From NCBI RefSeq assembly GCF_015207035.1, contig NZ_JADEXQ010000040.1:1-50094 (forward strand): a DNA stretch of 50,094 bases, in the 5' to 3' direction. The notes under the pieces are model-generated. The model saw only the letters and a list, made by a program, of their open reading frames with translations, did no database searches and was not told where the DNA came from. The translations under genes were made by a program, and so were the position numbers. Position 1 is the stretch's first letter. Each line of letters starts with the position of its first letter. This DNA comes from Romeriopsis navalis LEGE 11480 (GTDB taxonomy: Bacteria > Cyanobacteriota > Cyanobacteriia > Leptolyngbyales > Leptolyngbyaceae). This document shows positions 11,428-12,611 of this stretch, in pieces.

Positions 11428-11610
11428 AGGTCTACCCAGCCGGAATACTAAGTCGAAATACAGCCGCGCACCCCGTCATTCCACAATTTGCAGAGGGAAC
11501 GATCGCGGTCGCTCACAACAACTTCTCCCTCCCCAAGACGCAGACTTATGCAGCCCAATTTGTCCCTCCAGACTGATTTGTGCCGCCGGGGAAAATCCTA
11601 AAATTAGGTC

Positions 11611-12393
11611 ATGTACGATGACACCTGTCGCTTCCTCGCCGAACATTTCTCAGCGGACTTTGCCAGTTGGCTATTAGGCGCACCGATCGCGCTGACCGAA
11701 ATCGAGCCATCAGAGCTTTCCCTCGAACCGATTCGGGCCGACGCGCTCATATTGCTCCAGTCCGAAGCCACGATTCTGCACCTTGAGTTTCAAACACGGC
11801 CCAAAACCGACATCCCATTTCGGATGTTGGACTATCGGGTGCGTAGCCATCGCCGCTACCCCCGCAAAACCATGCGACAAGTGGTGATTTACCTGCAAGC
11901 CACCGGATCAGAACTGGCCCGCGAGACCCAATTTTCCCTCGAAAACACCACCCACAACTTCGAGGTCATCCGCCTCTGGGAGCAACCCGCCGAAACCTTC
12001 CTGCAATATCCAGGACTACTACCCTTTGCCACACTGGGCCAAAGCACTAGCGCCACCACCACACTCCGACAAGTCGCCCAAAACATCGACCAAATCGCCG
12101 ATCCAACCGCGAAAGCCAACCTCGCCGCCGCATCAGCCATTTTGGCTGGGTTAAAATTAGAAGAAGCAATGATTTACCGTCTTTTACGGAGAGACATCAT
12201 GCAAGAATCTACCGTCTATCAATCGATCAAACGCGAAGGTGAGCTTCAAGGTGAAGCACGCGGCGAGGCCAAAAAACAACGCGAGATTGCCTTAAATCTG
12301 CTGCGCAATAATTCGCCGCTGCAATTCATTTCTGACATTACAGGCATGTCACTTGAGGCAGTGCAGCAACTCAAACAAGAAATTGACGCTTAA
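11611..12393 (+). CDS. Rpn-family recombination-promoting nuclease (DUF4351-type)
   Basis: A 260-aa protein of the Rpn / PD-(D/E)XK transposase-like family very common in cyanobacteria. The opening YDDTCRFLAEHFSADFASWL, the block IRADALILLQSEATILHLEF-QTR and FRMLDYRVRSHRRYP are diagnostic. The nuclease residues read D44, E59 and Q61, the D-ExQ variant of the fold. The C-terminal 60 residues are a charged helix plus a helix-turn-helix-like tail (MSLEAVQQLKQEI). Rpn proteins cleave DNA and in E. coli act as toxic antiphage nucleases checked by an intragenic small protein; an equivalent internal start is visible here. It stands alone on the plus strand. Confidence 0.85.
   Translation: MYDDTCRFLAEHFSADFASWLLGAPIALTEIEPSELSLEPIRADALILLQSEATILHLEFQTRPKTDIPFRMLDYRVRSHRRYPRKTMRQVVIYLQATGSELARETQFSLENTTHNFEVIRLWEQPAETFLQYPGLLPFATLGQSTSATTTLRQVAQNIDQIADPTAKANLAAASAILAGLKLEEAMIYRLLRRDIMQESTVYQSIKREGELQGEARGEAKKQREIALNLLRNNSPLQFISDITGMSLEAVQQLKQEIDA
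12199..12393 (+). CDS. Possible internally initiated RpnS-like antitoxin (nested in rpn)
   Basis: Codon 197 of the rpn gene is an in-frame ATG with GGAGAG just upstream (12189-12194, 4-base spacer), a strong ribosome site in the middle of a gene. Translation from it would give a 64-aa protein containing only the C-terminal dimerisation/HTH-like part. Rpn genes of enterobacteria are known to make such an intragenic inhibitor (RpnS). That this start is used is inference; the downstream duplication of exactly this segment supports it. Confidence 0.45.
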   Translation: MQESTVYQSIKREGELQGEARGEAKKQREIALNLLRNNSPLQFISDITGMSLEAVQQLKQEIDA

Positions 12394-12417: not shown

Positions 12418-12611
12418 ATGCAAGAGTCTGTCATCTATCAATCGATCAAACGCGAAGGTGAGCTTCAAGGTGAGGCACGTGGCAAACCAAAAAACAACGG
12501 GAGATTGCCTTAAATCTGCTGCGGAACGGCTTATCGATCGAAGTTGTTGCAAACGGTACAAAGCTGTCAATCAAAGCAGTCCAGCAGCTCAAGCAGGAAT
12601 TAAACGCCTAA
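12418..12611 (+). pseudogene. Tandem duplicate of the rpn tail, frameshifted
   Basis: It begins with an ATG in the same place as the internal rpn start (MQESVIYQSIKREGELQGEA against MQESTVYQSIKREGELQGEA). It stays near-identical for about 100 bases, then loses one base before the A6 run (12488-12494), so the frame closes after 31 residues at 12513. After the shift the reading continues as IALNLLRNGLSIEVVANGTK and ends QQLKQELNA at 12611, so the copy was once a complete tail. The last third differs from the adjacent rpn, implying an origin from another rpn paralogue or older divergence. Confidence 0.75.

Follow-up and report, generated by a model that had tools for sequence, protein, structure and literature searches.

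The closest described systems are the Rpn nucleases of E. coli, where the small protein RpnS stops the growth defect, the SOS induction and the DNA cleavage due to the long protein RpnL, and where internal transcription start sites have been reported for all rpn genes (Zhong et al., 2023, PMC10327210). RpnS expression was also described from an rpn gene of C. difficile cloned in E. coli (Zhong et al., 2023, PMC10327210); E. coli and this one gene make up the published RpnL/RpnS case so far. In Synechocystis, too, a longer cyanobacterial gene yields a small protein from within, the structural product Cas11d of cas10d (cited in PMC10327210). Cas11d is a required subunit and no inhibitor, and its protein family is unrelated to Rpn. 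A literature search found no paper on cyanobacterial RpnS. The comparative evidence given here, a conserved internal promoter-like box among it, indicates that the intragenic Rpn antitoxin reaches cyanobacteria.

The window, that is, the whole 50,094-nt stretch of Romeriopsis navalis LEGE 11480 DNA that was analysed, is one contig of a 6.5-Mb genome and contains an rpn gene (Table 1) whose closest relatives by sequence, among public genomes, are cyanobacterial. We read this locus as a cyanobacterial gene-within-gene RpnL/RpnS module, at a probability of roughly 0.78. The long product matched TIGR01784 over residues 3-254 (73.2 bits, against a cut-off of 52.1), and its D44 and E59-F-Q61, invariant among 50 aligned Rpn relatives, align with the D and E-H-Q of E. 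coli RpnA. The AF2 model of RpnL had a pLDDT of 88.4, and the best fold matches of its N-terminal part were PD-(D/E)XK nucleases, among them EndoMS (Z 8.2, rmsd 3.5 over 105 residues). Sequence similarity between the cyanobacterial subfamily and E. coli RpnA/RpnE (COG5464/TIGR01784) is only remote; a PD-(D/E)XK nuclease with D...ExQ is common to both. The sequence-only reading had called the protein DUF4351-type, a label that is wrong because the protein has no Pfam match, DUF4351 (PF14261) included; DUF4351 is present in only 3 of the 50 aligned members. A sequence search of the PDB with the full protein gave weak, uninformative matches to PPR repeats only, and PADLOC gave weak matches only, with no Rpn model among them.

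Table 1. Features of the rpn locus, by position in the 50,094-nt window
Feature	Position	Strand	Remark
TAAAAT, -10-like hexamer of rpnL	11599..11604	+	first base 12 nt ahead of the rpnL ATG, as spaced for a leaderless mRNA
rpnL, full-length nuclease of the Rpn family, PD-(D/E)XK type	11611..12393	+	260 aa; TIGR01784, catalytic residues, AF2 model, fold matches
TAAAAT, internal -10-like hexamer	12152..12157	+	starts 47 nt upstream of the internal ATG
GGAGAG, Shine-Dalgarno (SD) site of the internal start	12188..12193	+	ends 5 nt before ATG197
rpnS, nested C-terminal frame, antitoxin by analogy	12199..12393	+	64 aa; Met column kept, AF2 helices, alignment with RpnA-S (7th0)
Decayed duplicate of the rpnS segment	12414..12611	+	ATG at 12418; 77% identical over 199 columns to 12195-12393; frame broken, reading ends at 12513

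Codon 197 of rpn is an ATG (12199-12201) from which 64 residues run to the stop codon. The sequence upstream of it is ttttacGGAGAGacatcATG, in which the GGAG core of the GGAGAG lies 7 nt from the ATG; the genome's own 16S rRNA ends in GGATCACCTCCTTT, which includes CCTCC, and GGAG is thus able to pair with it. Direct reading thus bears out the earlier claim of an ATG preceded by GGAGAG at suitable spacing and opening a 64-aa frame. An internal ATG with a GGAGAG-type SD is common to E. coli RpnA/RpnE and to this gene, and here, too, the in-frame start and its ribosome-binding site stand at the C-terminal domain, as judged by sequence and conservation only.

Relatives gathered from public genomes were aligned as codons (66 sequences), and Met occupies the ATG197 column in 60 of them. 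In the other six the frame is broken or ends before the site, save in L046, which has GTG as its internal start, preceded by GGGAGGAG. In a test set picked for having this Met (n = 56, below 90% nucleotide identity, median pairwise identity 68%), an SD match of at least 4 nt precedes ATG197 in 55 relatives, against 29% (maximum 50%) in 500 sets of synonymous shuffles; the shuffles ignore kinship, and the result was unchanged after clustering by identity. No SD excess was found by synonymous shuffling of the same alignment at the other internal Met columns, 72, 88, 110 and 172. The codon for R193 is NGG in all 48 cases of Arg and that for R194 is AGA or AGG in all 53, a lock restricted to positions 193-194; AGR makes up about 15% of the Arg codons in these rpn genes and is scarce at all other conserved Arg columns. 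GGAG or GAGG also precedes ATG197 in each of the 15 sequences below 68% nucleotide identity (expected, 1.2). The check on which the sequence-only reading had staked its claim, conservation of the internal ATG and SD above background, was thus run and passed. That reading had also called the ribosome site strong; the conservation and the shuffles place the site above chance, the adjective being on the generous side where the core has 4 nt. It is very probable that the internal start is genuine.

A second conserved element lies farther upstream. TAnnAT is kept at codons 181-183 in 54 of the 56 relatives (expected 2.6, maximum 9 in 300 synonymous shuffles), the second-best position in the gene reaching only 19/56. 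It persists whether position 182 encodes Lys, Arg, Val, Gln or Leu, the codon ending in A each time, and is present in 13 of the 15 sequences below 68% identity (expected, 0.7). The strongest block of synonymous conservation along rpn, codons 173-184, lies upstream of the SD and contains this hexamer. Transcription from it would start at about position 12164, giving rpnS a 5' leader of some 35 nt. A generic sigma-70 promoter scan, which requires a -35 box, for that reason had no match here; no such box was seen near the hexamer, which therefore remains a promoter-like element. In E. coli RpnA/RpnE an internal transcription start site has been reported; here the TAnnAT box would mark a candidate counterpart. 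Conservation at the DNA level of both the internal SD and this box makes it very probable that a small C-terminal protein is also made from rpn.

Chance, or a constraint on the protein by which the Met and Arg-Arg-Asp-Ile are kept and the SD is incidental, would accommodate the fact that M197, R194 and D195 are conserved residues. Its probability is close to negligible: synonymous codons are locked at R193, R194, L181 and codon 182 in sequences that vary freely elsewhere, and the synonymous tests already refute it within the limits of the sample.

The main start is built differently. TAnnAT occurs at -16 to -11 of the main ATG in 33 of 49 relatives (shuffles, mean 2.4, maximum 7) and, after removal of similar upstream regions, in 19 of 28, other windows having at most 6; these counts leave out subfamilies B and C, where start codons are unreliably assigned. 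The commonest position is -12, so that the transcription start would coincide with the rpnL ATG. An SD match of at least 4 nt is found at the main ATG in only 3 of the 49 relatives, and the main ATG of the gene described here has none. This suggests that the RpnL mRNA is leaderless and lacks an SD and that the RpnS mRNA is leadered and carries one, an arrangement that would favour an excess of RpnS, if, as we infer, both the rpnL and the internal rpnS promoters fire. E. coli RpnA/RpnE differ in this respect, the main start here being the one that seems leaderless.

The AF2 model of RpnS (pLDDT 80.5, with lower values over residues 1-20) has a long helix at residues 5-36 and two short ones at 41-48 and 52-63, the arrangement of 7TH0. 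E. coli RpnA-S (7th0) aligned with it over 46 of 46 residues at an rmsd of 1.5 A, with 28% identity and a Z of 6.7 that only equals the Z of TrpR-like proteins, which align at 6-7 A, Z alone being unspecific for helical folds. RpnL/RpnS modules are expected to have variable 4-aa repeats 8-20 residues past the RpnS start; in relatives such repeats read EGRT, EGRE or LQQG from about residue 12, and in the present RpnS the repeat is degenerate, GELQGEARGEAK. The small three-helix C-terminal domain with 4-aa repeats past its start is common to E. coli RpnA/RpnE and this gene, the RpnS length being 64 aa here and 49 in RpnA.

The layout of E. coli rpnA, rpnE and ypaA resembles that of cyanobacterial rpn/rpnS in a further feature. 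Both ypaA (rpnES), annotated as a pseudogene in MG1655, and the downstream copy in the window are standalone C-terminal copies that follow the parent gene directly and begin from the homologous ATG, the copy's ATG lying 13 nt after the parent stop in rpnE/ypaA and 25 nt after it here. The similarity of the copy in the window begins 4 nt before the ATG homologous to ATG197. Unlike ypaA, this copy is frameshifted, and the copies of relatives may resemble the main C-terminus of a different strain more than that of their own gene. Four relatives (L034, L045, L065, L075) have intact standalone copies that begin at the homologous ATG, 43-60 nt after the rpn stop, and the intact copies near rpn retain a purine-rich SD-like site. 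The earlier proposal of an RpnS-like intragenic antitoxin accordingly gains support from the conservation of SD and ATG, from the E. coli rpnA/rpnE/ypaA architecture and from these copies.

The purine-rich stretch before ATG197 might also be regarded as an SD-like pause site, or as an element that influences translation of RpnL where the domains meet, and it does lie at the junction of the nuclease and C-terminal domains. A pause site would not predict a conserved start codon, its replacement by GTG in L046, a separate conserved -10 at a fixed distance or standalone genes that begin at the homologous codon, and this explanation is quite improbable.

Matches to the C-terminal part only were seen elsewhere in the same genome (L005, L006, L010, L011, L014). 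In L091, L092, L094 and L072 (2516-2971) the nuclease part is interrupted and the C-terminal frame, with its ATG and SD, is open, as if RpnS had outlived RpnL there.

Main genes and downstream copies of related strains also appear to trade their C-terminal parts (L065:2501-3700, L068, L075:2501-3900), although the records concerned are mostly metagenome assemblies. L075 and L068 share up to 98% identity in their N-terminal parts and only 57-69% in codons 201-240, and the downstream copy of L075 is 94.6% identical to the C-terminus of L068. The C-terminus of L067 shares 94% identity with the downstream copies of L073 and L085 and 67% with the L073 main gene, the N-termini in the L067/L073 comparison being 87% identical. 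In two lineages, then, the downstream copy is closer to the main C-terminus of another strain than to that of its own gene, which points to displacement or exchange of cassettes between main and downstream C-termini. Such displaced cassettes suggest a route by which binding specificity changes.

According to the mechanism proposed here, the long frame would yield the nuclease RpnL. The nested unit, which has a -10-like element, an SD and an ATG to itself, would yield RpnS, consisting of nothing but the C-terminal dimerisation domain. If E. coli is a guide, RpnS would attach to this domain in RpnL and keep the nuclease off, and the small protein is likely the nuclease's own safety catch. Translation of RpnL from a leaderless, SD-less mRNA and of RpnS from a leadered one with an SD would favour an excess of RpnS, and the trigger for release of RpnL would probably be phage infection. 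We infer that RpnS is produced and has a role in defence. Release of RpnL becomes testable in that the mRNAs of the two products apparently differ in start mode. A more speculative extension, which we hold only tentatively and consider less than even odds, sets opposed modes within one frame, a leaderless SD-less nuclease and an SD-bearing antitoxin with a nested promoter; the nuclease would then be set free under conditions that favour leaderless translation, and RpnS cassettes would serve as specificity modules that are moved downstream and exchanged.

Alternatively, RpnS might be translated from the internal start and act, not as an antitoxin, but as a subunit that helps to assemble an active RpnL-RpnS nuclease complex or sets its stoichiometry. 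It carries the dimerisation domain, the sequence offers nothing to tell inhibition from assembly, and there is a precedent in Synechocystis Cas10d/Cas11d, as cited in PMC10327210. This alternative is nevertheless unlikely, since RpnS of E. coli prevents RpnL from impairing growth, inducing SOS and cleaving DNA (PMC10327210), standalone RpnS copies persist downstream and the apparent RpnS-favouring layout of expression fits an inhibitor.

The sequence-only reading had further expected this locus to widen the mechanism beyond enterobacteria. The comparative evidence points to its extension to cyanobacteria, the widening being smaller than claimed because RpnS expression from the C. difficile gene had already been shown (PMC10327210). 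A search of IMG/VR for phage-borne RpnS decoys returned 163 pattern matches with no relative among them, a negative that holds for that sensitivity alone. In a third cyanobacterial group of Rpn proteins no clear internal start was seen. A second cyanobacterial subfamily, B (MFGLSELKQT type; L155, L118, L128 and others), has an internal ATG of its own, and 28 of its 31 sequences carry an SD match of at least 5 nt, the shuffles giving 16%. This ATG is preceded by a strongly conserved AAGGAGAT/GGAGG, and 22 of the 31 sequences have a TAnnAT box at -65. In some cyanobacterial genomes (L161, L181, L187, L190, L135) two or three rpn genes stand in tandem.
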